This document shows, in pieces, positions 26,062 through 64,000 of a stretch of DNA of 64,000 nt. The position numbers were made by a program, and so were the translations under genes. Under the pieces are notes generated by a model, which searched no databases, was not told the origin of the DNA, and saw only the letters and a program-made list of their open reading frames with translations. Within the stretch, counting starts at the first letter, position 1. Each line of letters begins with the position of its first letter. Location of the stretch: positions 41,085,632 through 41,149,631 of the forward strand of contig OX359246.1 in the NCBI GenBank assembly GCA_947179485.1, read 5' to 3'. The stretch is from Allacma fusca (lineage: Eukaryota > Arthropoda > Collembola > Symphypleona > Sminthuridae).

Positions 26062-28967
26062 TGTGTCAATGCATTCACCTTTTTCTTGGTCATTCTTAGT
26101 TAAAAATATAGTTGTGGGAATGGTCCGGACTGTTCCAAGATTTTGGGTCTGTTCGGCACTCTCGGACGAGAACACGATTTTTGGAATATTTCAACTGGTC
26201 CAAAACTAGGCGCCAGATAGAGCAATTGTAAAGTACAACCTCATGATCAATCTGGTGAGTATCAATCTAGTTCAAGTTTGCAGTTGGATAAATGTCAAAT
26301 CTCATGGAAACATTTCGTTTTCGTTTGCCGCTTCAGGGATGGTCACATAACTGAGCACAGGATGAAGGAGGAAAGGTGACAAGGGATGTTTATTTTACCG
26401 ATATTTTGTAATAAAGTGCGGTAATGCAATAAAATAACATTTTTAGGGTTAACTTTACGCCTCGAAAGTTTTCATTTGTTATTTTTGGGTATCTATAGAT
26501 ATATGTATAAGAAAAAAAATCCTGGTTTGACTGATTTCAATTATTTGAATATCTGTATATATACAACCAACTGTATTTTTCATATAATGGGGGAGTTCAA
26601 TTTACTTCAATGTTTAAAACTATTTTATATTATATATAATTATTTTTTAAATCAAAACTACGTACTTACCCTGGCAAATTATATGATTTAATGATACACG
26701 TAACATTTTAGCATGATTGAGTGGATGTATCCGTGAGCAGCTTTGTCAAATTGTTTCGATGGTTCTTTCTTTTTGTTCGAAAATGTCTTACAGTACTCTA
26801 CAAATAGTTATTGCCATAGTCTCAGAAGAGTCATAGTAGTGGTAGTAGTTCTTAGATTTAATACATACACGTATGTAGTTATTAGGAATCATTTTGTTGT
26901 CGTCAATGCTACATGCATATGCTCATTGCAACTGTGTCATGGCAAAGATGTCCACATTGCGTATAAATAGACCACAAAATTGCCAAGGAAATAGAGTACA
27001 GTACAAGCAAATTTTGGTCCCAAAATAGAATATGATAGGAAACAATTTTTGTTTGTAGGATTTACAGCCTTGCTTAAATGTAGACGGAAATAGGTATTAT
27101 AGGACAGTTACTTTCTAGAAAATTTAATTTCTAGTTTCGAACATTTAGACGTTATTTAAGTCGTGCTGCAGCTGCAACTATACACTTGTAGTTCACCTTT
27201 TTCCGGTTCCCTTGTACCTAGACATTTCATTGCATAATTACTTGTTACTTGCTATAATATTGCAGGTAGTATTTACGTCCGAATATTTGTTCTTTTTCAC
27301 TTCATCTAACTTGATTAAAAAACTGATTCGTAGGAATTGCTATTTATGCATGACAATGATCTGATGCGGACTTTTTATACTTGTCGCATCCCAATCACTC
27401 GAAATGTATAGGATCCTATCAGTATGTTCTATAAGATGAAAGTATCAGATATGCATATGCGACTATATTTCAAACGATTTTACTATGATCCAATACTCTC
27501 TCATAGTCCCAACCCCGTAAATAGTTCCAGAATTAACATTTGTCTAAACAACTAAACCAACTACAGTAAACATTTGCATACATACTTTTCATACTGCTGA
27601 GGCGCGAAGAATCTCTGTCAAAGCAAGCACGGGATTTTTCTAAAAATGTCTTATAGTATCCCCAACCTTAAAGGATTTTTCTAAAAACTTTCTATGGTGC
27701 CCTAACCCATAAAATGCGAGTACAAGTTTTTCTCATGCGCTAAATTATTTATACGAGATCTTCTAGTACGACTTTTGGGATTTCTGATACTTTTTCTGAC
27801 ATACCCTGTGCAATCCATAGGAATTCCAAACAGTTTCGAGTGACTGGGAAGAATGGTCTGGTCCGGTACGGCACACAATTTTAAGCGGATTCTCTACAAT
27901 TGGTCCAGCAACTGACCAGATTATAGGAGTGCAGATACTGTACGTTCGCAAAAACATACAAATTAAGATATTAAAATTTAACAAAATCCCATGGCAAGGT
28001 GTAAAAACTTGTAACAAAATAGAAAATTTACTGAATAAAACGTGATTTTTTTAAGGTCCGGACATCGGTATTTGATCTGGTCTAGCTTTGTACAAGATCA
28101 GTTTCATAAAATTGGGCTCACACGAGATATACTGGCATTCCTAGGATTGGTTGTAGGAACACTTTAAGTAGGCAGGGCTGGAGTAGGTGGCAATAGCATT
28201 TATGGGTATTATAGGAAATTGGCTGTACAAAGCCATTCAAAAGATTTTATACGGCAAAGTAGGCAGGCAAAAAGTATTTCTAGATTTATAAATAGGTTCC
28301 TATATGAAGATGAAACTGTAGGTAGGGTATAGGTAGGCGAATTCATTTGGATATCTTTGTACACTGTGGTATATCTGTAATTTAATCTGTTATTCCACTT
28401 AACTACAAAGAATTAGCTTGTGCAACATTAGTATTAGTATACACAGGCGGGTATGTTTATTATTTAATTTCACCAATTGTTTTAATACCACCGTTACTAA
28501 AATTACGTTGAACAATTTCTCTTAACATGACAATGACATTTGTCATGGCTGGTTTGTAATTATCGGGTAAAATTAAGTATTTTGTAAGATTATGTACTTG
28601 TATTCTCCACTTAATTTATATATGATTTAGGTAGACGTTTTCGATTTGATTACTTTAGCTCCGGATGTTTTTAATAGCTATTATCGGAATGACGATTGAG
28701 TGTAATAAAAAAATAGATTTTCTACTATTTCTACAATTGCTCTATTAATACCTTTGAGTAAGTTCAAGCATACTGTATACTTAATTGCTTGAAAAACATC
28801 CGTTGTGATAAACAAATTATATGTTATTATTAGGACTGAAGAATGTCCATGCTAGAAGCAATTATGTATATGAGTCATTAATTTTGTTATTGACTATAAA
28901 ACACTCGTAATATAGCCTTTTCAGTTGCAGTTTAATCCTCCACACTAATACCTTATTCTGTTTTCAG
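26062..28967. other. intergenic region with dispersed repeat fragments
   Basis: Contains an AATAAA at 26410 after receptor 1. Fragments of a GGTCCGGACTGTTCC-like repeat lie at about 26110-26215 and 27820-27920, related to sequence at 48730-49160 and 50785-51185. No exon is supported. Confidence 0.4.
26410..26415 (+). terminator. candidate polyadenylation signal AATAAA
   Basis: About 350 bp after the stop of receptor 1, in AT-rich sequence. Confidence 0.35.
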
Positions 28968-32930: not shown

Positions 32931-34376
32931 CAATTGATTTTGTAGTCTTTTGTTTCATGGTCATAACTTCTGCAAGTTGTCGCCGAATGATTTTGAATTA
33001 TTTTTTTTCCTATTCAGGATGAAATTCTGTGAAAGAATATATGTACTTTCAAAAACTGTGTAGTTTGTTCGAACAGCGGACAAATTTTATTATCATCACC
33101 CTGTATTGCAATTTCAATTTTGGACTTGCTTATTTAGTATTTTAAATTCAAATTATTGCCAATATTACACATAATTACTAACGAGCTTGTAAGACTAATT
33201 CAACAAATCAAAATTAAATTTTAAGTTCCATCAAACCATAACTTATTCTGAAATAATGAACCAATAATAAATCAAGCTATTTCAGCAAAACCTTAGTCTT
33301 GTTTGAACGTGTTTTGAATTGACCAAATACATATCTACACTTCAGCATTTGTCTCATAATTGGCAATATATTTTTTTTAGCCCAAAGGAAAATGTATAAA
33401 TGTCAATAAACCGTAATTGTATACATACATGTTATACTTATAATGCTAGAAAATACTTCATTCAAATAATTTTTTCCCTTATTTTCTATATCATTTAGAG
33501 CTATACACAGTAGAGGTTGCTTTATATCCCTTGTCTCCCCCTAGCCACAACAAAGACCTAAAATATTTGGTTTCCTCATTTTCAAGATTTTTCAAAATTT
33601 GTTTTACCCTACTAGCTCATATACTCTGGATAAAACGGTCAAAGCAGTTGAGCAAAGTCATGCATTTTCGACAAAAAGTCGAATTTTAAATATTTTAATC
33701 TGCTTACTCAAGTTTAAAATTGTTTTGCCAAATATGTTTTTATGATATATTTGGTAGCAGATATTTTGGTCCTTCCGGGAACCTATCGCACAGTGTGCAC
33801 GTTGTGACATGAACGGTAATAAAAGAGAGCAAGGTTGGAAAAACATTTCTAATCATGGGATTTGTAGCCAGTCCAAGACTTCGTTCGTGGGACCCAAACT
33901 TTTCAGGAACAATTGATAATTTACTATTTCGAAATATATTTTAAAATAAAAATAAAATATATGGGCTACGGGGTAGGCAAAAGATATGAAACACCCGATA
34001 CATTTGCGTGTATCAACTATATACATACACTTACACCATAAACGATTTACATGCATGTTCAGAAATTGTACTGCTAAATATGGTATACCAAACAAACAAG
34101 TTTTGACATTTGTCAATCTACTACTCTTCAGTATTGTAAGCGTGAGCTAAAGGTAAGCTAAATGAAGCAAAAGTTTAGGACACTAGTGCATAAATCAAAT
34201 TTCATTTTGACTTGAAAAACGTTAACTTTCGTAATTACATGATTGTAAAAGTCAATCTCTGGAATAAAATTTGAAATACCCCTTCATTGTCTTGTAACCA
34301 GATTCAAAATATATCCTACTAAGTATATAGTACTGCAGCAATAAAATTTGCTTATAAAACTTCCCGGTAATTTAAA
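32931..34376. other. intergenic, no gene seen
   Basis: AT-rich 5' flank of receptor 2. TACAGGGTG-like ends near 32144 and 33110 may bound an old element into which the SINE inserted. No coding exon. Confidence 0.35.
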
Positions 34377-36203
34377 ATGCTTGCCAGAAGATTCATCCAT
34401 AGGACGTCTCTTCCTAGAAGATGTCTAGAAAAGCTATCACAACGTTTTGAAACTGACAGGGAGAAGCATTTTACAGGCAGTATATTTAACATAGACAAAA
34501 TGAAGTCCCGCACGGATAAAAGTTTCATTTGGTGCCATTATCTCGCCCCTGTGCCCATTCAATTTAATTTTGACCGGAATGTCCCTGAGGTTGCAAGCAC
34601 GAAATTAGCCTTCGTAAAAGTAATGACTCTGGTTTATATGACCTCTTGCGCTGTGATTATTTGGCGAATTTTACATACTCTAAGTTCCGGGTTACATTTT
34701 GGATCACCGTTAAAATATTTCGACAAAGTCTACCTAATATATGCGTTCTTTACAACTGCGGGCTGTGCCGTAGCAAGGATAATTATTCCTTGGAAAGAAG
34801 TTCCCCATATTTACCTCCAGGGATATGATTTTTTCCAGCGCCATGCAGGTACTATATATGAGAATAGTCGATATTATTTGAGATCCAATAGCAAATAAAT
34901 GCAAATAAAAAATTGATTACCGGTTCTTTTCACGTTTCACCCGTATCATCTCAGGACATTAATAAATCCCAGATAGTAAATTAATTAAATAATTTATTGT
35001 TAAAAAATTATGGGTAAAAGTTTCTCACCTGATATATTTTTGGGATTGAACAAACAGATCATACATGGTGGATTGTATGCAATTTTTGAATGCAGTATAT
35101 CAGAAAAATTACCTGGTGTAATTAATGGAAGCTGTATTGCAGACAGGGATTCGGGATGAATAAGGATGCCTAAATTTAAAACAAACAAATGAAAGTTATA
35201 TACTTATATGTATCCGTAATTAGATGCATTTATAAAATAATATTTACAGGTGTAATTATCACAACATCCACCCTGAAGGATTTTCAAAAGTTTCATCAAA
35301 TTATTACAATTGCCAAGATCGTTGCAATTGTTTCATCAGCGATTCTACCAATTTTTTGGTTTTATCGAAGTGACCTTCCCCCAAATATGTTCCCAGTGAC
35401 TTGGCCCTTGAATTCCCTGCCGAAGCTCCTCATGGCTACTGCGTCTCTGATCTTTAACTTTTATTTGCTGCAGTCCTTAATTACAATCATATTTACTGGT
35501 TTAGTTGGAATTTTCCCCGCATGGGCATTCACAATCACTACCGTAAAAGAAATGATGTAAGTTTTAGGTTTAGTTTCCGTAAGGATAATAATTTCAGGAT
35601 AAATTTTTCAATTTTTGTATTAGATATGAACATACTACATACGTATTTCGAGATTTTAATCTTTCTTAAGCTCCTCATGGTATAGTAACAATATATTGTG
35701 TGAGTTTCAGTGAAGCAGAAATACAGTACAGGAACGGAGGAAAACATCGGTTTTGTTCTTTATCGTGGTTTCTCTACATATACCGTGGGATGTATTTGAT
35801 GAGCATCCGAAGCAATCGGATTACTTACAATATTTTAATTGTACTTCAAACTGTTATTATTGCTCAGTCAATACTGGGCTTACTTTTACTGACTGGGGCG
35901 GGGAATTTTTTGGAAGTCATGGTTGGCGCTCAGTTCACACTAAGTTGTTTCAATTTAATTTTCCTTTTGAACAATTGTTCAGGACGAATATACGAAAGAT
36001 CCCAATCTGTTTTGGATGGCTGGAAACGGCGTAGTAATGGGACATACTTTAATAGAAGGTTGAAGTCTTTGAAATCAATTAAAGTCCATTGTGGACCGAT
36101 GTTTTATTTTGATGGGAAAATATTCGCTACAGTGGTAAGTGCAGTTGTAGAGAATTACATTAGCATACTGCTACAGCGACCGCCTAACAGGAGAGTTCCT
36201 TGA
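34377..36203 (+). CDS. gustatory-receptor-like seven-helix protein 2
   Basis: Exons 34377-34848, 35250-35556 and 35711-36203 give 423 residues. It is a clear tandem paralog of the gene at 24356-26061: exon 2 (307 nt) and exon 3 (493 nt) have the same lengths, phases are identical, and long identical blocks occur, for example FWFYRSDLPPNMFPV and SLKSIKVHCGP. The C-terminal basic loop and final helix (NYISILLQ) are kept. The two proteins differ mostly in the N-terminal 40 residues and scattered helix positions. An AATAAA lies at 36271-36276. Confidence 0.8.
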
Positions 36204-36270
36204 TGCTTTCAAGTCTCGTGCCTGTCAAGTAGTGCAATGAATATTTGTAACCACCGTGAAGCTTGCTACA

Positions 36271-45261: not shown

Positions 45262-46777
45262 TCACTGGAAAAGCTTAACTAGTAGATTGCTATCATTTTT
45301 TAAATCAATTCTCGCTGTTGTACAAGGCATACGTGAAATAATTTCCATAAAGTGCTCCTCAGTCTTAGGTAAGCGTTCAGCTAATTGAGTTAGAATTTTG
45401 TTAGTGGCAACTAAACGAACATTACAGTTCCTATCTTGAGCAATTCGTTTTCTCCACGTGTTCAATTCAGTCAATGCATGCCACTGCTGTTCATTGAAAT
45501 GATTTTTGTACTTCTCCATCCATTCATTCTCATTCCTTGCGGATAAGCCCTGTGTTTGAGCACTTTTGGATAATTCGTAGACAGACAGCAAATATCCGTT
45601 TTCAAGCTTCATCAAAAGCTCCTTCTGTTGATCGTACACGTTCAAAAGGAAATGGGAATCCTTTCTTGCAGCCTTAATTGTAGTTTCAGTAAGTGGCCTG
45701 CGCACAACAAAAAAACAGAGAACTTACATTTGCTAAAGCTCAAATAAATTCAAAAATATTTCTGCACGGAAAATACCTCTGCTTCCAGAAACCTCGATGA
45801 CTGCTTTCTATATTTATGTACTTATGCAAAAAATATCCAAACGTGTTAATCTCCTCATCCCGTTCCTCAATTATCTTCTCTGTCGACTTTATGATCCTCT
45901 CAGCCTTCCTGATGTCAAAGAGTCCAATTACATGAATACCAAAATCTTTCTTCAGACTGAGAATATCCACTACCTTCCCACAAAATGTAACCTGCAAGTA
46001 TTACACAATCAACTATTATCTCAATACCTAATCAAAACAATCACACTTATGATTTAATGACTATTACCTTCAAAATATATGGATTGGCAAAGATCTCATT
46101 CAATTCCTTCACAATTTCTTTTTCTAAACTCAAACAGTCAACTACATAATCCTTGAATCGCGTTGAAATTGTGATTAAACAAGCCAGTCTCTGGTAATTA
46201 GTGGAGGAGTTCTTGACACGAAAGCCAATCTCCATCACTTGAAGATCTCTCAATTCAGTCATCATTTCCTTGAATTTCTCTTCCGTATTGATAATATCCA
46301 TTGGAGTGTCCTGCACGTTTAAAACTGGCCACTTAACAAAACTATGCTTGAGGAACAACGGGGCTGGTCTCCAATCCCAAATACTTCTCTTTTTATCGGT
46401 GGCAATCCTAATAACAGATTAACAAATAGATTAACAGATCTTTTAAAAATGGAAATAAAATATACTCCAACAAATAATAATTTATTAGTTGCTCAATGAT
46501 AAAAATTTAATTACGTTGTTGAGCCAATGTTACGAGAAACTTCTGGAGTGGTCCAAGGAATGCTACATTTGGTCTGCAATAACTTTGACGCTTCCTGCTG
46601 TCGAAATGTCTCCAGTAATTCCAGATTCGGCTCATTTTTATTACGGACTGTCACACTCACGCTATTAAGATCCGGAGTAACATTTCTGGTAATTCCTTCC
46701 GTCGGAATTGTAATGCTACTGAATTTTCGAATCCCAGGGAAAGTACTTTTTTGAACAAATTTTGCCACAAGTGTCAT
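45262..46777 (-). CDS. Rrp6/EXOSC10-like protein with lost catalytic residues
   Basis: Minus-strand exons 46777-46515, 46407-46068, 45991-45777 and 45697-45262 give 417 residues. The order is an N-terminal region (1-125), a DEDD-type 3'-5' exonuclease fold (about 126-300) and an HRDC domain (about 325-410: NEQQWHALTELNTWRKRIA...KILTQLAERLP). Rrp6 trims RNAs with the nuclear exosome. Compared with EXOSC10 the Exo I VDLE motif reads IGFR (148-151), replacing both metal ligands. At Exo II the region is GKVVD (206-210), keeping only the last Asp. At Exo III YxxxD becomes AARKD (282-286), losing the Tyr. The fold and HRDC are intact with no stops, so this looks like an inactive paralog with a scaffolding role (inference), much shorter than the full enzyme. 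Confidence 0.72.
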
Positions 46778-50464: not shown

Positions 50465-51920
50465 TGAGATTTGGAATGAGGAGGACGTAAAAATTATTAG
50501 TAAAGGAACTTGGAGCAATTTGGGAAAACATTTTATTTTTCATCTGAAAACTTATCCTAGGGCTACTAACTCCATGTCGGAGTAGTAAGATGGGACAGGC
50601 ACAGAGCCCTACAAGATAAAATCATATCAACCAAAATTTCGAAATCGTAGTCAAAACTGCAATCCGACATTGAGTTTATACTCTTCCGGTACACGCTCGT
50701 TATTAGAGACCCTTATTTGAGTATTTTCTTCAGAGTAAGGGACATAAATAAACAGATTCTCTTAACGAGTTTGGCATTATAAGAGTGGTCCGGTCTGGTC
50801 CCAGGTTTGGACAAGTGAATCTATTCCAACATTTTGTACCAAACCGTTAGGACCGTTCTTGTATAAGGACCATTAATAATAATCTGATCACACCAAATTA
50901 TTCCTCGATGGGCATTTGCAAACCAATTCCTTTTCAACGGATACCCAGGAGTGTAAAAAACGTCCAAAAAAACTTCAACCAAAGAAGTTTGTTTCAGCAA
51001 TATTAATACTGTAAAACAGTAGAAATTGCAACAAATAAGGATGATTTGCAAACAGACCACATGTTTCTGGTCCAGAAAATCCACAGGACTCTGTTCCTTG
51101 GTCCGAGAGTCTGGAGCAGACCATTTTAAATGATCGTGCTGTTGAACCAGGCAGATCAGAAATCTTGGAACAGACCGGAACATTCCCAGCACTATACATA
51201 GACTGGACTCACAGTAAAAAATCAATATGCTTTTTATATGCTGCTTGAACTTCAATGATTCCGAATCTGATGCCACTATAGATAAATTGAATGTGAGTGC
51301 GATGTCAACTATTAGCATACGTAGGCTGCAATTAATTCATTCAAGTTAATGTTTTACTATCATACGCCCTACTATAGCTACATGGCCCTTTGAAGCATAA
51401 TGAAAAATAGTTGATGAGATAGTGTATAGAGTCTAATGACGGCATAAATGCCTGATTATGAGCTGGGAAAACTTGACCATGTACTTGGAAAAACTTGGGG
51501 TAATTTTGTATGATATAATAAATCGGGTGATAAGATAACTTTTGTAGTTTCGAAAAAAAATCTGTATTAATTGTATCTCTCATTCCCGAAAAACATGTTA
51601 TTGCCTAATACAATAGTACATCAGTACCTAGATTAGTTACGTCTTCTCCCGAGATGACGTCAATTTTGCATACAAGTTTCATCAAATAGTTATCAGTTAT
51701 ATGGAATTTATGCTAGCAATAAGCACTTCACAGATGATCAACTCACTATAGATGTGCAATGATCAATAATTTAATCTATGCTTTCAGGTCATCCTAACAG
51801 TTGACAGCTATGCAGAACGTCGCATATTTTTGACAATGTGTACTCATTGTCCATTCTGGGGTTTTGTGTTGATCACTTGACAGGTAGGAAGACTACAGAG
51901 TCAAAGTAGGACCCGCAAAT
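50465..51920. other. intergenic region with repeat fragment
   Basis: Contains a GGTCCGGTCTGGTCC / GGAACAGACCGGAAC bounded segment at about 50785-51185. The 165-residue minus-strand frame across it is judged fortuitous. A CRE-like TGACGTCA lies at 51655-51662 and an inverted GATA motif at 51690-51695, upstream of Shisa-like gene A. Confidence 0.4.
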
Positions 51921-52685
51921 ATGCCGAGTTTTGTTATTTTTTCCACAATCTTAGCATTGTTGTTTCTCAATTGTGAAGCGTGGTGTGATGATAATTATTG
52001 TTATTCAGATGATGGAATTGCGTGAGTGCTAAAAAAATCTCATTATTCAGCATTTGTGAATTTACTAAAAATATCTACATTAATTTCGCACATTCAAACT
52101 AATATTCTATTTTCCTGTAGGGTAACTGTAATTTACAGTATGGTAGTCGGATTGGCTGCAATCATCGCAGTGGGAATCGGTATTTGTTGTGTTTGTTGTT
52201 CCTGCTGCCCGTGCTACAGGAAGAAGACGAGGACGCCTCAAACTTTCGTTGCTGCCCCTGTACCTGGTTTCGTCGGTGAGAAATTCAGCAAAACTTGCTA
52301 CTGGTCTCAGGACACTTGTAACTAAAAACGGATAAAATGTATGGCTGTGTGATTTGCAGGACTGAATGCCAACGGAGTAATGATTGGACATCCTTACGTC
52401 ACAGCTTACCAAGTAAATCCTGCTTTTCCCAACCAACCAGCGTATCCACCCCAGTTCTTACAGCAACAATATTATAGTCAGTACCAGCCACCTTATCCTC
52501 CTCAAGATCCACCGCCTTATCCCCCTCAAAGTCAAAGTGACGGCCGGACTCACGACCCCCTAGCTTTGGGTACAAGCAGTGCTGTAGCCCAGAATAACGA
52601 CAAGCAACAATTTAATGTAGCTGTTGACGACCATCCCCCACCATATCCGATCACTGGGATCGACCAGGAGCAAAACAGATTCTAA
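51921..52685 (+). CDS. Shisa-like PPxY-tail membrane protein A
   Basis: Exons 51921-52021, 52121-52275 and 52360-52685 (phases 2 and 1) give 193 residues. There is a signal peptide (MPSFVIFSTILALLFLNCEA), an ectodomain of only about 15 residues with two Cys (WCDDNYCYSDDG), one helix (VIYSMVVGLAAIIAVGIGI), a dense Cys cluster (CCVCCSCCPCY), then a Pro/Gln/Tyr-rich tail with two PPPY motifs plus QPPYPP. This is the architecture of the Shisa/WBP1/VOPP1-type superfamily, whose tails bind WW domains of Nedd4-type ligases and whose Cys cluster is palmitoylated. The ectodomain is far shorter than in classical Shisa proteins. It is the longest and most divergent member of the array. Confidence 0.72.
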
Positions 52686-53893
52686 TTTTAAATCCACCTC
52701 TTGTTTTTTTGAGCAGCCCACAATCTGTTAGCTTGTCTTCGATTCTTAAGATGACACATTGAATGACTCTACTGCTTTGTTGAGGTTTAAGCTCTTGAGT
52801 ACTTACCTAGTACATTAAATTAACGTAGCATGGTCAACACGTAACACTTGTTGAAAAATGTACGTATTGTTGCATGTAATCATACAAATCAGGTTGGGTC
52901 AGGCGCGTAAACCAAGTTAGTTTTAAGTTGGAGTTTTGAAAAATATTATGTTCAAAATGGGACTCCATATTTTAAACAACTTGACCACAGCCACTTTCCT
53001 ACTAACGGGTCATGCTACAAGAGTCGAACTATGTACAGATATTAAATCTAAATTCACGCAAGTTAACAAGCCCAGTATGATTATACCACTTACATTTTTG
53101 ACTCCACATGCTATTTCAACAGGAGTATCAGGAATTACATGAAATGATCCTTCACTTAAAGGCAACTCCGTTCAATAGTCCAATATCTCAAACATGGTTT
53201 ATAAATCCCGCAAGTATAATTTTCAAAACTTCATTTAAATATTTTCAGGTCACAATGTACATTTTGGTGACAAACAACTCCAATAATTGAGATGAGGTTG
53301 ACTTGTTTTTCATTGGTTTATCTGGAATGTATAACAAAATTACATCATAACATTTTAAAGGGCTATCCTCAAAGATTTTGTTATGAAAGAATGTCAGTTG
53401 TTTTTTGTTTTTGTTCCAAAAATGTGTACTTAAGAACACAAATGTACCCACAAACACAAATATGTTCACCTATTGATTAAGTACTTTGCCCTCGCATTAA
53501 CCATGATGTCTCCTGGCGCCTGTTAAATTTATTGTACCTTGTGGCCATCTATATAGTAGCTCTTCCAATTCTTCCCTACCCCGCAACGCAGTTTTGTCAC
53601 ATTAAAAAGGATGAGATAACATGCTATAACATTGAACATCAACATTAATTTGAAAATTAACCCAAATATATTTTGTTTATACAGATGTTGTATTTAATGG
53701 AAAAAAACACCTGAAACCATTGACAATGATTAATTTCTACTGATTCATCCTGCCTACATTCTAGGAAAACGTTGTGCCTTCTCGGAAACGATATGGCCAG
53801 TCACTGTATCAGACAGAGCCATACCTGTAATAGTAAAAGAAATGTATATTAGAATCGTACCTTACTTTTACTCTCCTCACCACGAGCTACTAA
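52686..53893. other. spacer between array members A and B
   Basis: No exon supported. Around 53746-53830 a CTGATTC.TCCTGCCT...AAAACG block resembles the conserved 3' block of genes C-E, suggesting a remnant of a lost unit. Confidence 0.3.
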
Positions 53894-53904
53894 TGATAAG
53901 ATAA
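53894..53904 (+). promoter_or_regulatory. GATA-type motif upstream of gene B
   Basis: TGATAAGATAA, 247 bp before the start codon of gene B. The same motif lies at comparable distance before the other array members. Confidence 0.5.
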
Positions 53905-54140
53905 AAACTCTTGAAGGCATTACATGAACTTACAAAAATATTACAAAAATATGGTATCAAATTCCCAATGGTTTAGTTGTCCACCAATCCACTGTTCGGT
54001 TCTTTCGTAATATTCCGTAATTGTGAGTCATTCATCATGAAAGTGGGGGTGGGGGTATTTTGATGCGGTGTACGACGTAAAATAATTAGCCACTGCGAAT
54101 GAAAAAAATTATTCTCTGTCATCTCTTCGGTCAGTTCCAC

Positions 54141-54735
54141 ATGGCGTCAAAAATTCCCCATCTTTTCCTAGCCGTACTTTCAACAGTTTTCTTCTCAGTG
54201 TTCCAAGTCAGCCATGCAGAGTGTAAGTGGGAAAACGGTATTTATGAATGCACAGGTCCCTCAGCACGTCTGAAGTGAGTCTGATTTGATATCCTCAAAA
54301 TGATTGCCCAATTGTGAAGTCATAAAGAAGCAAAATTTTAAACGATTTTCACAGCTACCCCTTAATCATTGGGCTCGCCGTGGCAGTGCCATTATTCATC
54401 CTATCAATTGTCATAGTTATCTGCATTTTTTGTGCCCGCTGCCCACTTCACAGAAGGATGAACCGTCGGAGGGTCCGCTCTCCAGTGTTTGTCATTCAAT
54501 ATCCTTACCAAGGTTTGTCTTGAAATACTCAAAATAGAAACTTACCCCTACTGGTAACATTTTTATAAATTTCAATTTAGATCAAATATTGGATTTAGGT
54601 ACGTCAAGTCAGACGGGATACTCTTACCAGGGTTATTCGAGAAACCCCTGTCCTTCCCATCAACAGCAGCATTCTCCAAAGTATAACACAGCAGTGCCAA
54701 CTGCATCTGGGTGGACTAGTGTCATGGCTACTTGA
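54141..54735 (+). CDS. Shisa-like membrane protein B (no PPxY)
   Basis: Exons 54141-54274, 54355-54512 and 54581-54735 (phases 2 and 1) give 148 residues; an alternative acceptor at 54599 stays in frame and removes six residues. There is a signal peptide, a short ectodomain with two Cys (AECKWENGIYECTG), a helix (YPLIIGLAVAVPLFILSIVIVICIF) and a reduced Cys set (CIFCARC) followed by a strongly basic stop-transfer (HRRMNRRRVR). The tail has YPYQ and GYSYQGY but no PPxY motif, unlike its neighbours. The exon scheme places it in the same family. It may have lost WW-domain binding. Confidence 0.65.
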
Positions 54736-55333
54736 TACAGAGACAAAAAAATTTGTACATCCTGCACAATAATTTCTCCTGTTGGCGCAAATATATTTGA
54801 AAACATTACATTAATGCCCTTAATTTTTACTAATATTTATACTTATAAATTTTATCCTTTAATTGTATTGCCAGAAGCTAACTTTGCTCCTTATGTGCAT
54901 ACGTGCTCGTGGAGATATAGCCTAATTGTATGTAATAGTTTCATCCCAAATAAAAAAAGTCTATTTAATTTATTAAACGTTTTCAATGTAATTTTATGCA
55001 ATGCATCCTTAATGCCTAGAAATACAGTATGTATTGTATGTAAAGTCATTATTTTAGATCAACTGTTCGCCAAAATAGTGATGATGGCTGTTTAATTAAT
55101 CACAAAAGTAAGACGTCATTATAGCTTTTAATTGTTTTTCAGTTTTGGAGTCCTCGACATTCTCTGGAACGGCGTACATTGAACGGGTTCGATAATTTCC
55201 ACACTTGTACATACGTCCACAATTCGATTGTGTATGATCTCCCTTATATCTACCTTATAATTGAACCTATTGCACCATAATTTTTAATGAGTGTAGAAGG
55301 TTGTGTTTCTTACCCGTGGCGTCGATAAGCATT
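54736..55333. other. spacer between array members B and C
   Basis: No coding exon supported. Confidence 0.35.
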
Positions 55334-55344
55334 TGATAAGATAA
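55334..55344 (+). promoter_or_regulatory. GATA-type motif upstream of gene C
   Basis: TGATAAGATAA 277 bp before the start codon. A second CGATAAG lies 10 bp upstream of it. Confidence 0.5.
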
Positions 55345-55610
55345 AAACCATTATAATGCCTGGTCAAGTTCACCGGCAAGGATAAGGCTATGCATATAAT
55401 TATATAATTATATGTATATTATTTTATAAATTTATAAGACCCTTCAACTGTGAAGGTCCAGGTGGACCGACTGCTAAATGTTAACTTCGGATGACTGTCA
55501 CACCTCAATTCGTTCAGTAGTAATTTTGAGCTCAGAAGGGAAGGGAAATAATTGAGAGTAAGTTAATATCGCCTGGATCAAAATATCATTAAACAGTGAC
55601 TCACTCCAAA

Positions 55611-56303
55611 ATGGCATCCACATTCTCAAGATCCCCTGTAATGCTCATTGCATTTCTGTTGTCTTTCCAAGTTTACGTTTGCAATGCTAGCTACGAATGT
55701 GAATACGATTGGTCCGGTAACTACGTATGCGAATGGACTGATGATACCAGGTAAATTACCACATTTTTTAGTAATTACTAAAAATTATTTAAAATATCTT
55801 CTCTAATCTTATTTGTCTATTTCAGTTTGGGACTCATTTTGGGGCTTGCAATAGCTATCCCATTAATCATCCTCATAGCCTGCATCATTGGCTGCTGCTG
55901 CTGCTGCGCCAATTGTCCAATGTACCGTGGAAAAAAGGACGCCCCTGTGATCATTATGCCACAACAGCAGATGTATCCCATGGGTATGTATTAACAGTAC
56001 AATTATTCCTAAATAATTAGAATGAATGAACATTAATTTTTAATCATCTTAATATATGAGTTCCAAGACTTGGGATTAATCCAACTGTGCATTTATTTTA
56101 CAGGTCCTAATGGACAGCCTGCTTACCCCCAACAAGGTTACGGAAACTATCCTGGCTCACCTCAAGGACCACCAAATTATCCTCAACAAGGTTATTCAAA
56201 TTACCCTGCTGATGGACAACAAGGACCTCCTCAACGTGGGAATAATGCAGCTCCTCATCCTGCCCCTGCACCTGGATGGGCTGCACAAGAGCGTAAAAAT
56301 TAA
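55611..56303 (+). CDS. Shisa-like PPxY-tail membrane protein C
   Basis: Exons 55611-55750, 55826-55983 and 56104-56303 (phases 2 and 1) give 165 residues. The signal peptide (MASTFSRSPVMLIAFLLSFQ...) is followed by a short ectodomain YECEYDWSGNYVCEWTDDT with two Cys, a helix (LGLILGLAIAIPLIILIACIIG), a run CCCCC then ANCPMY, and the linker PQQQMYPM. The tail exon starts GPNGQPAYPQQGYGNYP and contains PPNY, a PPxY match, amid PQQGY repeats. It lacks the VSNPAYPQAPPPYP block of D and E. The exon-1 sequence is nearly identical to pseudogene F. Confidence 0.75.
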
Positions 56304-57185
56304 AGCCATATGCAGCAGATTCCAATAATTATTACTAATCATGACATGATGATTAGTAATTGATTTTTATCAAGCACAAAAGGACAATCACAATAAATAT
56401 ATACCTTCATTGTAATCATTGACATTCGCTGTAGTTTATTCTGCCTGTGCTATTCTTCAGAACAGCAAAATCCTGGCGAAATATTATATGAATAATGCAT
56501 AAAGCTACATATGCACATATAGTTTTATACATAATTTGTATATATATATATATATATAATTATATTTGCAAATGCAAATATCCTGTATTTACTGAAGGAT
56601 TAAACATGAATTGGACCTCGTACATCCACTGAAGATTTTGTTAGTTTGGGATTTTGTTTTTAACACTAATATTAAATTAAATAGCGAAAGGCTTGCTCTA
56701 CAAAATTGGAAATAAATAAGGGAAAGCTACTTTTCGAAATTAACAACACCGTTGATTCAACATATAGTAAATAATTGGATAGTAAAACTCTGATATACGT
56801 GATCTCCTGGAGGTTGCCAATTTGGACCATAATAAATAGCAATCCTTTTTGTATATTATTATCGTTGTCTTTCATCTGTAAGGGTATTGTCATATTTACG
56901 CATTTCAAATTCCAGTTGGCGTTTTTAAAATCTGTTCCCAATCTCAGCTGCCCTTCCAGTTTTAGTTTGTTTTCTCGCTCTTTGATCAAACTCAGTTTTT
57001 CTATTTCGTCCATTTCCAGGACACAAACCAAAAAAGTACTACGGGAGACTGAATAAACTAAATACATTTTAGTAATTATGTGTATACATATTTTATGACT
57101 CAACCTGTTGCACTATATAGTGACTAATACCTAATTGAAAATTGAAGTCAACACAAATATTTCAAGAGTAGCGATGACGCACATT
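56304..57185. other. 3' flank of gene C
   Basis: Includes a conserved 3' block (TTATTCTGCCTG...AGCAAAATC...ATGAATAA, about 56435-56500) and an AT repeat (56539-56558). A flank of about 200 bp (56685-56850) is matched downstream of gene E (60775-60930). The 143-residue minus-strand frame here is treated as fortuitous. Confidence 0.45.
56539..56558. repeat. AT microsatellite
   Basis: About ten TA dinucleotides. Confidence 0.8.
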
Positions 57186-57196
57186 TGCTAAGAGAA
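57186..57196 (+). promoter_or_regulatory. degenerate GATA-type motif upstream of gene D
   Basis: TGCTAAGAGAA at the position equivalent to TGATAAGAGAA of gene E, 247 bp before the start codon. The core GAT is mutated to GCT. Confidence 0.35.
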
Positions 57197-57296
57197 AATA
57201 ATTAAAGTATCTAGGAAATTCTTCGGGGAAAATATTAAGTCAATGTTTGTAATATTACAAATTTACAGTGGTAATCCGAATTTGAAGGTTCCATTC

Positions 57297-57340
57297 GGTC
57301 GAATTACTTGATTAAACTTCTATAAATATTTCATTTCAGT
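57297..57340 (+). promoter_or_regulatory. conserved proximal promoter block of gene D
   Basis: GGTCGAATTACTTGATT followed by a TATAAATA box at 57321-57328 and TCAGT at 57336. Equivalent blocks stand before E (59629), F (about 61097) and G (about 63746). Confidence 0.5.
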
Positions 57341-57432
57341 TAGTAGTGATTTTCATCCCCGAAGTGAAAGGAAGTTATTCCGAGCAAAAGAACTTGGAAT
57401 CAGAGTACCACTAAAAAGTGACTGGCTACAAA

Positions 57433-58207
57433 ATGGGGCTTAAAATATCAGGATCCCCTTTAGTGCTCATTGTGTTTCTACTATCCTTGGATACATTTGT
57501 TTGCAGTGCTGGTTATACATGTAATTACAATACCGCCGAAAACCCACACTGCAAATGGGACGATAATCTGAAGTAAATTTTTGCCACATTTTTTATTACG
57601 CATTTTAAAAATATGTACCTACTTTAGAAGGAATCTAACATTGTTTTTCCAGTTTCCGTCTAATTGTATGGATCTCATTAGCTACCCCATTAATCATCAC
57701 CGCTGTCTGCCTCATTTCCTGCGTCTGCTGCGTCTCTTGTCCACTGTACCAAAGGATGAACCGTAAAAAACAGGGGGGTGTAGTTTCCACTGCACCCCAA
57801 CAGCAACAATATCTCATGAGTACGTATTAACATGGAAACCAACACTTATGAAATTATCGCAATACTGGAGCAGTCATTTTTAACCATTTCAAAATACGAG
57901 CTCCAATATGTACAATACTGTAACAATTCCAAGTGGATATTTTTTTACAGGTCCCAATGGACAGCCTACTTACCCTCAACAAGGTTTTGAAAACTATCCG
58001 GTTTCCAATCCAGCGTATCCTCAAGCTCCGCCTCCGTATCCTTTCCCTCAACAAGGTGCTTCAAACTACCCTGTATCTTATCAAGTGCAACATGAAGTAC
58101 CTCAGGATAATTGGAATAATGGAGCTGTGCCACCTACTTCTGCTCCAGGATGGGTCCCACCAAAACCTACAAACGAAAGCCATATTCAGCATATTTCCCT
58201 TAATTAA
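57433..58207 (+). CDS. Shisa-like PPxY-tail membrane protein D
   Basis: Exons 57433-57572, 57653-57819 and 57951-58207 (phases 2 and 1) give 187 residues. There is a signal peptide (GSPLVLIVFLLSLDTFVCSA), an ectodomain YTCNYNTAENPHCKWDDN with two Cys, a helix (FRLIVWISLATPLIITAVCLIS), then the Cys cluster CVCCVSCPLY and a basic stretch QRMNRKK. The tail begins with the shared PNGQPTYPQQGF block, carries NPAYPQAPPPYPFPQQ with a PPPY motif, and ends with PTSAPGWVPPKP and a longer C-terminus than E. It is closest to E in tail and exon 2. Confidence 0.75.
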
Positions 58208-59523
58208 TCCTGACATCACGAATAATGTTTATCAGTCACACACACATATTCCCTTGCAACCAATCCACATTGTTATCACTAACTCTTGTTGTGGCTGATT
58301 CTGCCTGCACTATTCCGCCCAGCAAAATCATCACTATTTTGAAACATTACATGAATAAACTATACTGCTATTTATAATTATGTACATATGTATTTTTGTA
58401 CATCCAGATTTTTTTGTAATTCCTGAACCGAGCGATTAAATATACGAATAGGAGCTCGCATGAAGATTTGGTTATGGTCTTGAAGTTTGTTTTAAATACC
58501 AATATTCAAAAAAATAGTTATGAATGGCGAGGTCAGAAAATTGACTACGCCTACCCCAAAAAAGTTGATTTTGGAATTAGAAGAGCCAAATCAAAATAGT
58601 CAAAAATATATTAGAATTTTACTTGTGTAATTTTTTGCTTATGTATTACTGACGTTAATTGTCGTAAGAAAAGGAATTCTTCGGACTTCGGCAAAAAAAT
58701 TAATTCTCTTCATGAGTCAATTAGACGACTTCAGGCAGTGCTTTGAAGATAGTCTCGCTATTCTCTAAATTCTCGATATAGTTGGGAAGGATAAGAGGGA
58801 AAATATCTGTAGATCCGATACTTCTCTCTTCCGTATCTTTGCTCCTAAATATGTATTTCTCTAACCTTGCGCTTTGCACCTATCAGTCCTGTTCACAATT
58901 TTAAACGTAGGGACCTATATGTGTGATAGCTCCCTGGAAAGCCCGTAAAATTTTCTGCAAAGGAGCCACAAAAGAAACTTCAGAAAAATATTTGCATCGT
59001 AATAAATATTTGTAATGATTGACTGTGAGCTTCTCGTGTAAACATTTGGTAGCTGTTCAAAGAACAACACAAGAATTCAAATGATAAAAATACACAAAAT
59101 CAATTCGATTCATTAAATTTCTGCACAAAATGCATGTTGACTTGCATAGATAGCTACATTCGGATAAGTCCATTGTAGTTTTCTGCGTGAGATAATTTCA
59201 AACATTGTGACTTACAAGGGAAGCTCTTGGATTGAACAACCCGGATCAAATAGCGACTTTGAATGCTGATGTCTTATAATTATCTGTAGTCCCAGTGTCC
59301 TAACCAACATTAAAGTTCATGCTTACAACTCTGGTTACTCTCAATATTTAGGAACCGCGTAGACAGGATAAAGTTCTGCTGTAGCTGTAATTATTATATG
59401 TGTCTGCATTATACATCTTACATTGATACATGCATTTGACGAATGAATCTATTGCGCATTATATCTGTAAGTTTTAATCAGTACTGAAGATTATATTTTT
59501 GAAGGGAACAAATGACAAGCAAT
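58208..59523. other. spacer between D and E
   Basis: Begins with the conserved 3' block (CTGATTCTGCCTGCACTATTC, AGCAAAATCATCA, ATGAATAAAC; about 58295-58360). No further exon supported. Confidence 0.4.
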
Positions 59524-59534
59524 TGATAAGAGAA
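59524..59534 (+). promoter_or_regulatory. GATA-type motif upstream of gene E
   Basis: TGATAAGAGAA 241 bp before the start codon. Confidence 0.45.
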
Positions 59535-59764
59535 AAAAGTTAATGCATAGGCAATTCCCCTGATAATGTAAAGTCAATGTCTATAGTTATAAATTTACAA
59601 TGGTGATCCGAATTTTAAAGTTCCTGTCGGTCGAGTCAGTTGATTAATCTTCTGTGAATACTTCAACTTGATCAGTAGTGATTCTCATCCCATAAGTGAA
59701 GGAGAGTAATTCCGAGAAAAATAACTCTGAATCAGAATACCACTTAAAAGTGGCGGACTATAAA

Positions 59765-60481
59765 ATGGCATCAACATTTTCAAGACCTCCTTTTGTGCTC
59801 ATTCTGTTCCTATTATTGCATGTATATGTTTGCAGTGCTGAATATACATGTAGTTATGATGAGAATGGCAACTACACATGCGATTGGTCGGATGATCTGA
59901 AGTAAATTTTTCCCACATTTTTTATTAAGAATTTTAAAAATACCTACTTTAGAAGGAACCTAACATGGTTTTTGTCCAGTTTGTCCCTAATTATAGGGCT
60001 TTCATTAGCAATCCCTTTAATCGTCACCTTAGTCTGCGTCATTGCCTGCTGCTGCTGCGTCACCTGTCCGATGTACCAAATGTTGAATCGGAAAAAAAGG
60101 AGGGGCGTAGTGTTCGCTTCCCCACAACAGCAGATGTATCCCATGGGTATGTACTAACATGGAAATTAATGCGAAATTATGGGACAGTTATTTCAAGCCA
60201 TTTAAAATTATGAGTTCTAAATCCAAAGCGTGCAATTAATCCAACTGAGAAATTATTTGACAGGGCCCAATGGACAGCCTGCTTACCCTCAACAAGGCTT
60301 TGCAAACTACCCGGTTTCCAATCCAGCGTATCCTCAAGCACCGCCTCCTTACCCTTTCCCTCAACAAGTTCCGAACTACCCTGCATCGTATCAAGTGCAG
60401 CATGAAGTACCTCAAGAAAATAGGAATAATGGAGCTGGGTCACCTGCTCCACCATATGTTGCACCAGAACCTACAAACTAA
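59765..60481 (+). CDS. Shisa-like PPxY-tail membrane protein E
   Basis: Exons 59765-59901, 59980-60146 and 60264-60481 (phases 2 and 1) give 173 residues. There is a signal peptide (MASTFSRPPFVLILFLLLHV...), an ectodomain EYTCSYDENGNYTCDWSDD with two Cys and an N-glycosylation site (NYT), a helix (LSLIIGLSLAIPLIVTLVCVIA), cluster CCCCVTCPMY, a basic stop (NRKKRR), linker PQQQMYPM, and a tail with PNGQPAYPQQGF, NPAYPQAPPPYPFPQQ (PPPY) and a C-terminal PAPPYVAPEPTN. Likely a plasma-membrane or endosomal adaptor by family analogy. Confidence 0.75.
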
Positions 60482-61014
60482 AGCTATATTGAGCAGATTT
60501 GATACATTTAATTAATCCTGACATCAGGATAAATGTGATGAAATATATACATCTGTGCTCACACACAACCATTCCGCCTTGTAATTATTGTTGTTTTGTT
60601 GTAGACTATTTTGGCTGCAGTTTATTCTGCAGCAAAATCATTAATGTTTTGTAATATTATATGAATAACGTATAACGCTACATACTTGCGACCTTGAAAT
60701 GGCGCATATGTACTGAAGATTTGTTTGATTTTGAGGTATTGTTTTCAATACCAACATTAAATAAAATAACAGCAGTAAACGGCTTGCTCGAACAAATTGA
60801 ATGTACACATCCCGAAAAGCAGCCTTTTGAAATTAACATAACCGAATCAAGATGGTAATCATTTTAACAGTAAAATTCGAATATGCATACATACGTGAGA
60901 CTTTCAATTCTGATTTTATAAACAAGAACCCTTTATATGATTATAACGTGTTATATTTTTGTGTGAGGGACTTCCGGTGGGACTGATGAAACATTCCTTG
61001 TAACAAAACATTTA
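60482..61014. other. 3' flank of gene E
   Basis: Holds the conserved 3' block (TTATTCTG..AGCAAAATCATTA, about 60618-60670) and flank sequence matching that downstream of gene C. No exon. Confidence 0.4.
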
Positions 61015-61024
61015 TGATAAGGGG
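61015..61024 (+). promoter_or_regulatory. GATA-type motif upstream of pseudogene F
   Basis: TGATAAGGGG 225 bp before the start codon of F. Confidence 0.4.
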
Positions 61025-61239
61025 TTTCACTGTGATGGGCTATTACAGTAACACTAACAATAAGCCATCCAGTCCACTTTGAAAAAAGGATTCCTCTCGG
61101 TTGAATCACTTGATTTAACTATAAGGAATATAAAATAGGAATTCGATCAGTAATGATTTTCAACCCAGAAGGAAAGGGAAATAATTCAGAGCAAATTAAT
61201 CCTGGATCAAAATATCCTTAAACAGTGACTCACTCCAAA

Positions 61240-61520
61240 ATGGCATCCACATTCTCAAGATCCCCTGTAATGCACATCGCATTTCTGTTGTCTTTCCAAG
61301 TATACGTTTGTAGTGCTAACTACAAATGTGATTACGATTGGTCCGGTAACTACGTATGCGAATGGAAGGATGATACCAAGTAAGTTACGACATTTTTTAG
61401 TAATTACTAAAAATAGGGCTTGCAATAGCTATTCCACTAATCATCACCATAAACTGCTTCATTGCCTGCTCCTGCTGTATCATCTGCACACTGTACTAAA
61501 GGCTGAACCGTAAAAAACAG
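61240..61520 (+). pseudogene. Shisa-like array member F, broken
   Basis: Exon 1 (61240-61379) is intact, with the signal peptide and ectodomain YKCDYDWSGNYVCEWKDDT almost as in gene C, and keeps a GTAAGT donor. The intron is fused to exon 2 by a deletion that removes the branch region, the acceptor and the first residues of exon 2 (junction near 61414). The helix continues (GLAIAIPLIITINCFIACS) but ends in TAC-TAA where the relatives have TAC-CAA, a nonsense change. Nothing resembling the Pro-rich tail exon follows. A signal peptide plus ectodomain could at most be made. Confidence 0.75.
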
Positions 61521-62343
61521 GGTTTGTTACAGTTTACCCTGTTAACGCTCCTTAACACATTGAATTTACATGGTAACCTACATGACCGTTTCACAATCTA
61601 TGTAAATGTCACGTAGATTACTGACCTGAGTTTTCTCATTTATCGCGCTCAAGCTATTCTTTGTTTCCAGCATTTAAAAAGTGTATTTTTAGAGAGAATG
61701 CCAATGCCTTATAAGGTCTTGTCCACTGACACGACCAAAGGTGAAAAATATACAAAAGGACAAAATGTGACTCTTCTTGACTGCTCCAGAAGAAACAAGT
61801 TCTCTGACTTTGATTTATGTTGGTCTTTATTTTAATAAATAAGTAATTTTGGCATTTTCTCACATCACCTTTCCAAGTTCACTTTAAATGTAATATATAT
61901 ATATATATATGTATACATACATGTATATATACATCGTAATATTTACAAAAACGTAATCCTTTAATTTTAATGCAAATGAATTTCATAACAGTAGCCGATT
62001 GTGCTCCTTTCGCATACTATACTCGTATATTGTATATATGTACATAGTTACACCCCACTGTATCCATACTATAGTTTAATTTTACAGGGGAAAATGTTAC
62101 AAACAGTCGACTCTCCCTATAGAGTCACTCGTCCCATTCTGTCACTTTGGGTTTCGCCCAAGCTGATGTATGTATGTACATAATAATTACTATCTTTATA
62201 TTGTCACTCGGTATTGTGTGGGCTGCTTTATAACATCTTATTTTTCCAGACCTGGGCTTCTTTTCTTAGCATAACCTTATTTGCGTCCCTGGGTAAAAAA
62301 GTTTCTCTCATTAGATATTTTGACAACCAGTGGCGCTGTGGGC
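61521..62343. other. spacer after pseudogene F
   Basis: AT-rich with an AT microsatellite (61893-61910). No supported exon. Confidence 0.4.
61893..61910. repeat. AT microsatellite
   Basis: About nine TA dinucleotides. Confidence 0.8.
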
Positions 62344-63318
62344 TAGAGCTTCCTTCGGGTTTCCGAAATCCTGATGTTCCGTGTTCGGAAACGGAACGGA
62401 ACAATTTCGGAACATTCTTTTTGGTTCCGTCATTGAATCGGGACAAAACCGGAACATGAGCACTTGTACCGATGATATTGGGACCGGGATGGTTCAGAGC
62501 ATCGGTACGAAAAATTTCCCATATAATTTATGTCATTGGAAAGCGGAATTGTTCTGTTCCGCTCCGAACCGATCCCGGTACAATTTCTGAAGTGACGCGC
62601 CATCGTTCAACTAGAATAGAAACACAGTTCTTAACGCTCTGGCTTGTAAGCAGTTTTTTGCCAAAATAACGAAATTGGATGAACACAGCAAATGCTCATG
62701 AAGCTCGCGAAGCTGTAGATATGTAACGCGAGTATCGTTTTCCATGAAAATTAACAGAACAACTAATTTTGTTTAATAAACACGGGCATGGGCGATTTTT
62801 CTCGAAATGAAAATTCTGGAATAGAAATAATTAGCAGCAATGAAGCAAACTTGCAGGAAATTAACACTGTTAGGTCATTAAAGTCCACACGCTACAAATT
62901 TTTATTGCTAAAAAATAATTAATATATAATACTGCACAGTAGTTCTTTTTATATGGCCTAATTCCTAATTATTATTTTATATAATTAAATAATAGCATTC
63001 CCTAGCATCCAATCTATTAAAAGTATATCATGTACATATATTAAGTTTCCAGTAATTTGTACACGCATTTCACGTATATGTTGTGAAAAATTCCGGGATA
63101 TTTCGGAACGGGTTCGGAACGGAATAACTAGCATAATACGGAACGGAACACAACCTGTAACGGAAAAAATACTTTACTTCTCTGTTCCGAACGGTGTCAG
63201 TTTAAATGTTCCGATGTCCCGACAGCCGAACCGGAACCGGGAACAATATTATTTGTAGGTTTCGGAACGGAACGGAATTTCCTACGGAACAAAAATGTTG
63301 AACACATTAGAAGCTCTA
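62344..63318. mobile_element. hAT-type element 7
   Basis: Inverted ends TAGAGCTTC and GAAGCTCTA with a perfect 8-bp duplication CTGTGGGC at 62336-62343 and 63319-63326. Subterminal zones consist of GGAACGGAAC / GTTCCG repeats (62380-62590 and 63090-63290). No coding capacity. It is inserted between array members F and G. Confidence 0.85.
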
Positions 63319-63326
63319 CTGTGGGC

Positions 63327-63638
63327 TTTCCAGGATTTATCCAACACGGGTCCCTACGTAGAGATTTCCGGGCATGACACAACCAATGTCAAACTAATGT
63401 TGAATAATTTGCTTCGAAGGATTTATTTATTTGTTGTAACTCCATAACGTTTCCAGTACATTGTCACGTTTTGGAAGATTTATCTTTGACTTTATACAGA
63501 GCCCATTGTAGTGGGAAGGTTTACTGTTAATGTTCATACACACTTATATATAATTTAAATTTCAACGTATGCACTATATTCATATGTTAATTGAGTATTG
63601 AAGCTAATACTTTTTAAGAGTGGCGATGACAAACGTTT
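63327..63638. other. spacer before gene G
   Basis: No exon supported. Confidence 0.4.
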
Positions 63639-63649
63639 GATAAGATTAA
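63639..63649 (+). promoter_or_regulatory. GATA-type motif upstream of gene G
   Basis: TGATAAGATTA 248 bp before the start codon. It is followed by GTTCGAATCACTTGAT (about 63747) and a TATAAATA box (63776). Confidence 0.5.
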
Positions 63650-63886
63650 AACGCTACTTGAGTACTACCACCGAGAATGGTAAATCAATGCTTACAGTTA
63701 CATATGCATATATAACATATGAATTTATGATGCCGATCCAACCCGTTCGAATCACTTGATGTAACTTCTGAGGAATATAAATACTTTAATTCGATCAGAA
63801 CTGATTCTCAGCCCCTAAGTGACGGAAAAAATTCAGAGCAAAATAACTCTTGTTTCAAATCTCATTAAAACGCGACTTGCTATCAA

Positions 63887-64000
63887 ATGGGATCAACATT
63901 TGCAAGATCCCCTATAGTGTTTATTGCATTTGTGTTATCTTTGCAGATACATTTTGGCAAAGCTAAAAATGATTGTGAATGGGATCACGATCACTTCATC
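63887..64000 (+). CDS. Shisa-like array member G (5' end only)
   Basis: The frame from the ATG at 63887 to the window end encodes 38 residues: a signal peptide (MGSTFARSPIVFIAFVLSLQ) and the beginning of a short ectodomain with one Cys (NDCEWDHDHF). Sequence, promoter block and GATA motif match the other members. The remaining exons lie outside the window. Confidence 0.65.
   Translation, partial: MGSTFARSPIVFIAFVLSLQIHFGKAKNDCEWDHDHFI

Follow-up and report, generated by a model that had tools for sequence, protein, structure and literature searches.

The 64,000-nt stretch of the springtail Allacma fusca genome analysed here (hereafter the window; contig OX359246.1, C8 in our searches, C8:41085632-41149631) holds a tandem gene family that is real and for the most part intact, and whose products are very small. 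Seven homologous units, named U1 to U7, follow one another in direct tandem on the plus strand, six with intact frames and one, U6, a pseudogene. Their products share one order of parts, namely a signal-like hydrophobic N-terminal segment, a short ectodomain with a cysteine pair, one hydrophobic helix, a cysteine cluster, basic residues and a tail rich in proline, glutamine and tyrosine; at the inner end of the helix, all six intact proteins carry the motif CxxCxxCPx[YH], which is newly described here. An earlier note on this DNA had seen in these units minimal Shisa-like WW-adaptor proteins. The anatomy supports its picture of an expanded array of small, single-pass, cysteine-clustered and PY-tailed adaptor-like proteins, and profile searches do not place them with Shisa. 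Judging from the sequence, we hold it about evenly balanced that the array represents a tandem family confined to this lineage, whose very small products, probably type I membrane proteins and perhaps lipid-anchored, serve as membrane-anchored docking tails and would recruit WW-domain ligases of the NEDD4 type.

Layout of the array and anatomy of its products

Gene models were built from splice sites and reading frames, and the units were compared by tblastn, repeat searches and shuffling (Table 1). Five three-exon genes, U1 to U5, are complete in the window; its end cuts U7 inside exon 1, and the genomic sequence beyond completes the U7 frame. In all five in-window complete genes intron 1 is in phase 2, intron 2 is in phase 1, the ends are GT/AG and the introns measure 68 to 131 nt. 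U7 has the same two phases, so that plan and phases are kept in six of six intact genes. The earlier note's phase-1 second intron, common to the five units where a second intron was visible, is thereby confirmed and extends to U7, while its phase-2 first intron stands for U1 to U5 and U7 but not for U6, the sixth, whose 'visible first intron' amounts to a donor alone. Likewise, its count of seven holds for homologous units but not for genes, which number six plus the pseudogene.

That the units share one plan in tandem is backed by homology above chance. The best tblastn E values per pair are 3.7e-37 for U3/U4, 8.8e-47 for U3/U5 and 8.8e-66 for U4/U5, and for the divergent U1 and U2, 1000 segment-wise shuffles never gave a score as high as the real one against any of the remaining units complete in the window, whether the whole protein or exon 2 alone was taken. 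A tree built from the six intact proteins resolves their relationships poorly (supports 48, 57 and 81).

U6 is a pseudogene: it has lost the end of intron 1 including the acceptor, a TAA stands in frame, and the search up to U7 turned up no exon 3 (E<0.001). Its exon 1 and upstream DNA are 90% identical to U3 over 279 nt. Since its exon-2 remnant resembles both U3 (85% over 62 nt) and U4 (78% over 100 nt), U6 may be a mosaic. The interval in which U6 lacks its third exon contains two stretches, 62360-62590 and 63090-63300, that by eye look rich in GGAAC/CGGAAC.

As to the extent of the array, tblastn with the exons of U1 to U5 as queries (E<=0.001) found no further unit in the 29.8 kb past the window (30,000 bases, 200 of which overlap the window), nor in window positions 1-51900. 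Searches of the whole assembly (392,743,791 bases, 91 contigs) with U3 exon 2 gave four matches, all within the array (U2, U3, U4 and U5). With U1 there were seven, three of U1 itself and four of one broken distal copy at C8:42626027-42632708, 1.49 Mb away, which is 87.6% identical over 796 nt and has its exon 3 split by about 5.9 kb. With U7 at E<=1 there were 13, of which 12 lie in the array and one, weak and with an internal stop, on C12 (E 0.07). Such queries score the best first-look candidates only: the array neighbours of U1 did not turn up with the U1 query, nor U1, U6 and U7 with the U3 query. The genome copy counts are therefore lower bounds, and divergent copies may have been missed.

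On the minus strand, 7187-7752 at first seemed to be an eighth unit, with two cysteines and a PPPY tail. This reading was rejected: the frame lies in a tandem-duplicated segment, has another hydrophobic frame upstream and lacks a start methionine before its hydrophobic stretch, and it resembles the final part of a multi-pass protein. The duplicated segment itself (7187-8048 and 9508-10058, minus strand, 76.7% identity over 562 nt) holds a two-cysteine loop and adjoins the frame with the PPPY-bearing Pro/Gln/Tyr tail; Pfam names none of it.

By hydropathy only, each of the five proteins complete in the window has two hydrophobic segments, a putative signal peptide and a putative single transmembrane helix, as would be expected of Shisa-like proteins. 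The ectodomain between them comes to about 14-20 residues, an estimate with cleavage sites placed without a predictor. Before the helix there is one cysteine pair in each of the six intact proteins, spaced C-x8-C in U2 and U7, C-x9-C in U3 to U5 and C-x4-C in U1. The two ectodomain cysteines of the earlier note are thus found throughout, with the caveat that U1, U3, U4 and U5 have a third cysteine in the presumed signal peptide.

The six intact proteins contain eight PPxY motifs in total, where shuffling gives 1.8 on average (P 0.00025, a value that overstates independence, because the proteins are paralogues and the U7 motifs arise from a repeat). This repeat, in the U7 tail, is a 66-nt tandem repeat of 2.9 copies with three in-frame PPPY. 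Differences between tails lie in tail length and PPxY number.

Table 1. Units of the array and upstream sites (window numbering, continued past 64000 for U7)
Feature	Position	Strand	Exons	Exon lengths (nt)	Details
U1	51921-52685	+	51921-52021, 52121-52275, 52360-52685	101/155/326	193 aa; two PPPY; intact frame
U2	54141-54735	+	54141-54274, 54355-54512, 54581-54735	134/158/155	148 aa; zero PPxY; intact frame
U3	55611-56303	+	55611-55750, 55826-55983, 56104-56303	140/158/200	165 aa; one PPNY; intact frame
U4	57433-58207	+	57433-57572, 57653-57819, 57951-58207	140/167/257	187 aa; one PPPY; intact frame
U5	59765-60481	+	59765-59901, 59980-60146, 60264-60481	137/167/218	173 aa; one PPPY; intact frame
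U6	61240-61522	+	61240-61379; exon-2 remnant from 61416		pseudogene; in-frame TAA 61497-61499
U7	63887-64000 in window, to 64742 beyond	+	63887-64023, 64111-64262, 64393-64742	137/152/350	212 aa; three PPPY; intact frame
TGATAAGA, GATA-type site	51528-51535	+			393 nt upstream of U1 ATG
TGATAAGA, GATA-type site	53894-53901	+			247 nt upstream of U2 ATG
TGATAAGA, GATA-type site	55334-55341	+			277 nt upstream of U3 ATG
TGCTAAGA, one-mismatch version of GATA-type site	57186-57193	+			247 nt upstream of U4 ATG
TGATAAGA, GATA-type site	59524-59531	+			241 nt upstream of U5 ATG
TGATAAGA, GATA-type site	63638-63645	+			249 nt upstream of U7 ATG

Comparison with Shisa-like and other families

Membership of the Shisa/WBP1/VOPP1 superfamily was not borne out. 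In a Pfam scan at E<=10, in which the filters of HMMER remove most hits with E greater than about 0.1, neither Shisa_N nor WBP-1 was listed for any of the six intact proteins; as a positive control, the genome's own Shisa domain scored 38.3 bits in the same scan. Exon-wise searches of the whole genome, which may miss intron-split domains, gave two Shisa_N and four WBP-1 matches, none in the array. Only one Shisa_N match genome-wide exceeded the cut-off (C12:9816950-9817081, 38.1 bits), and it has six cysteines in the order C*C*CC*CC. None of the four WBP-1 matches did so, and the three of them that were inspected were dismissed as low-complexity or unrelated frames. Membership by profile was accordingly rejected.

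The remaining features used to recognise Shisa-like proteins are those of Pei and Grishin 2012, taken from the citing papers PMC5578492, PMC6991692 and PMC10531659. The ectodomain pattern is given as C*C*CC*CC (PMC5578492, PMC6991692), and for zebrafish Shisa as C*C*CC*C*CC*C (PMC10531659). The six-cysteine pattern C*C*CC*CC is found in none of the six intact array proteins, with their one cysteine pair each. A four-aromatic transmembrane motif is also named (PMC5578492), for which the source gives no exact pattern; no array helix has more than two aromatic residues, as counted by eye on alignments. A PPxY or LPxY in a proline-rich, presumably cytosolic tail occurs in five of the six. The array fails the cysteine pattern, the profile and the aromatic motif, and agrees in the sequence of its parts and in its PY tail. 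Array proteins may work as Shisa-like proteins do despite failing membership.

Among known systems, the STMC6 group, described as comprising WBP1, WBP1L/OPAL1, VOPP1, CYYR1 and TMEM92, is like the array in its short cysteine-bearing ectodomain, single helix and PPxY tail, but the array has one cysteine pair instead of C*C*CC*CC and no WBP-1 match. The Shisa family (PF13908) shares the order of parts, but the array lacks a Shisa_N match and the genome's own Shisa domain lies on C12. One possibility, which we regard as doubtful, is that the array proteins are highly derived members of the Shisa-like/STMC6 set in which the CC*CC half has disappeared from the ectodomain while the first cysteine pair, the cysteines next to the membrane and the PY tail persist. 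The array pair presumably recalls the first two cysteines of VOPP1 and WBP1. The common order of parts fits such a descent, as do the likewise very short ectodomain of WBP1L (PMC6991692) and the cysteines that zebrafish Shisa-1 to -5 carry near the inner helix end (PMC10531659). Against it stand the missing profile matches, one cysteine pair where six cysteines are expected, and at most two helix aromatics where the motif has four. This possibility concerns descent and is compatible with a docking-tail function.

Two other families come to mind. Commissureless (PF15957) is also a short single-pass protein with PY motifs, which controls Robo traffic (PMC5578492), but it has no ectodomain cysteines (PMC5578492), and no LPxY was found in the five array tails scanned. 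The Pfam Comm model reached E 1.3 for U4, with 9.7 bits against a cut-off of 27, and was unlisted for the other five intact proteins. Melan-A (PF14991) weakly resembles U4, U5 and U7 in profile over helix, cysteines and tail, but with 14.7-17.4 bits against a cut-off of 27; this is likely a likeness of composition. The Pfam matches below cut-off comprised MLANA, ATP1G1_PLM_MAT8, Prominin, Comm, TMEM154, 7tm_1 (U7, E 0.0048) and others. Placement in a cuticle or mucin-like family, which the earlier note had named as an outcome that would refute it, did not occur.

Searches further afield were equally unproductive. A profile search of the PDB gave two chance-level matches (E 1 and 9.8), and short-pattern scans of prokaryote contigs (21 pattern matches) and viral contigs (124) yielded no tblastn relative; with one pattern each and no animals, these scans carry little weight. 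Among the literature matches listed we recognised no description of this array, and the genome paper on Folsomia candida mentions neither 'shisa' nor 'WW domain' in its main text (PMC5490193).

Divergence of the copies and a shared upstream site

Over the whole gene, the ratio of nonsynonymous to synonymous divergence (dN/dS) is 0.61 for U3-U4, 0.44 for U3-U5 and 0.56 for U4-U5 (rough Fisher p 0.008, 6e-5 and 0.007, respectively), with dN values, in the same order of pairs, of 0.385, 0.303 and 0.221. Against U7, the ratios are 0.47, 0.65 and 0.66 for U3, U4 and U5. For exon 2 alone, dN/dS is about 0.96 in U3-U4 and about 0.91 in U3-U5, so that this exon is nearly unconstrained in those two pairs, which speaks against strong constraint on the helix.

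The earlier note had described both tails and ectodomains as divergent and had suggested diversification of small-ligand or WW-partner specificity. For the tails of U3 to U5 this description does not hold: exon-3 dN is 0.295, 0.311 and 0.107 (again U3-U4, U3-U5 and U4-U5; the U3-U5 value is slightly above the gene average) against 0.659, 0.480 and 0.556 for the ectodomain. In comparisons with U7, exon-3 dN is 0.30-0.48. The ectodomains are indeed the most divergent part at amino-acid sites, exceeding the rest of the protein in all three U3/U4/U5 pairs (p 0.018, 0.041 and 0.0002; the pairs are non-independent). However, ectodomain dN/dS is only 0.34-0.60 in these pairs (19-20 codons), and relaxed constraint would account for the divergence equally well as diversification of ligand specificity. 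Against U7, the ectodomain values are 0.42, 0.98 and 1.07 for U3, U4 and U5 (19 codons, without significance test). Positive selection on the ectodomains is not supported.

A second feature common to the genes lies upstream (Table 1). The octamer TGATAAGA occurs five times on the plus strand of the window, each time 241-393 nt before an array ATG, and thus precedes five of the six intact genes. The minus strand has two occurrences, one of them (58083) inside exon 3 of U4; the downstream stretch that was fetched has none on the plus strand and one on the minus strand. Among 8-mers present in at least four of the seven 450-nt upstream regions TGATAAGA ranks first, being found in five of seven, with no occurrence on the plus strand of window positions 1-51400. 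The heptamer TGATAAG occurs in five of seven 300-nt upstream regions; over 20,000 random placements the average was 0.17, and five was never reached. Upstream of U6 the site reads TGATAAGG, and exact TGATAAGA was not found within 450 nt of that unit; nor was TGATAAG found within 500 nt upstream of the distal broken U1 copy. The obvious protein to read a site of this kind is a GATA factor. Closer to the genes, TATAAA stands at -111/-112 in U4, U6 and U7 and TCAG at -92 to -97 in U3 to U7; we do not claim a TATA/initiator pair, as the two elements seem to lie too close together for a standard one.

Possible function and neighbouring features

How could such proteins act? The mechanism we propose, plausible overall, would place the Pro/Gln/Tyr tail on the cytosolic side of the membrane, with juxtamembrane cysteines that would be lipid-modified by analogy with WBP1L, a small transmembrane adaptor that is palmitoylated, binds ligases of the NEDD4 family and controls the ubiquitination of CXCR4 (PMC6991692). 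The PPxY motifs would recruit NEDD4-type ligases through their WW domains, and removal of cargo would follow. Such binding is predicted from related cases: CYYR1 binds WWP1 and WWP2 through PPxY motifs (PMC11399591), and in the NEDD4 family the WW domains recognise PPxY, their binding to substrates or adaptors being able to relieve autoinhibition (PMC13196369). Gene copy number and PPxY number might then tune ligase recruitment. More tentatively, a common GATA-factor input might lead to shared expression, possibly in the gut, a guess drawn from C. elegans, where the promoters of intestinal genes show a high enrichment of TGATAA sites (PMC10656426).

Several points weigh against these proposals. 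Expression, WW binding and lipidation of the array proteins are all predicted, and no Pfam model exceeded its cut-off for any intact protein. U2 is intact and yet without PPxY; the 'WW adaptor' label of the earlier note is apt for five of six proteins only, and WW binding cannot be an invariant of the family. YP dipeptides, 21 observed against 7.6 after shuffling in five tails, are at least as prominent as PPxY. The TGATAAGA motif was picked after inspection, and upstream sequence from U3 to U7 is common by descent. The five sites are hence non-independent, and independent support comes down to U1, U2 and one ancestor. Finally, GATA factors are active in several fly tissues (PMC10830412).

The prominence of YP opens another, in our estimate rather unlikely, possibility: the tail could be a Tyr/Pro/Gln-rich docking or self-associating segment for non-WW partners, for example of the ALG-2/ESCRT type, PPxY being incidental. 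The lack of PPxY in U2 would then find an explanation, and so would the block GQxxYxxxQG, whose Q, Y and Q are invariant in the five-protein alignment while PPxY is not; but PPxY is over-represented and has been multiplied in U7, which speaks for WW docking. That the array is birth-and-death noise, relaxed or decaying tandem duplicates of little function, is improbable: one unit in seven is a pseudogene, the distal copy of U1 is broken, and two of three U7 ectodomain comparisons have dN/dS near 1, but six frames are open with conserved splice phases, dN is below dS overall, the cysteine motif is common to all, and the upstream site precedes five of six intact genes (the sixth, U4, has the one-mismatch version), whereas its exact form was seen neither in the 450 nt before U6 nor, as TGATAAG, in the 500 nt before the U1 copy.

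The rest of the window contains further features. At 45262-46418, on the minus strand, HRDC and 3'-5' exonuclease domains stand in neighbouring frames, a pairing that we take to be that of an RRP6/EXOSC10-type nuclease. A duplicated hydrophobic gene pair on the plus strand (24355-26063 and 34376-36205, DNA 77-79% identical) gave no Pfam match in the pieces scanned; as a guess, these may be chemoreceptors. Positions 10652-12423 form a large internally repeated block with many overlapping self-matches of about 70-75% identity. Two genes like wax ester synthase/diacylglycerol acyltransferase lie on the minus strand at 13857-14969 and 20052-21266 (Pfam WS_DGAT_cat, E 5.5e-9 and 2.1e-9), and diacylglycerol O-acyltransferase is reported among the largest expanded families of the Folsomia candida genome (PMC5490193).

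To return to the docking-tail proposal, its boldest form, which we think rather unlikely, would be that a hexapod lineage evolved, outside Shisa/STMC6, a cluster of membrane proteins reduced to little more than ligase docking and governed by a single GATA input. Duplication would have produced graded docking strength (0, 1, 1, 1, 2 and 3 PPxY), one tail having been lengthened by in-frame repetition of a PPxY module, and U2 could be a natural no-docking competitor. If this is true, a single locus would offer a dose-and-valency series of adaptors. PPxY membrane adaptors help determine which receptors are removed by ubiquitin ligases, and natural variants with zero to three docking motifs, a near-absent ectodomain and a shared upstream site would allow one to ask directly whether valency alone sets ligase recruitment. 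The array also suggests that the Shisa-like plan is attainable without the cysteine-rich ectodomain that defines that family.

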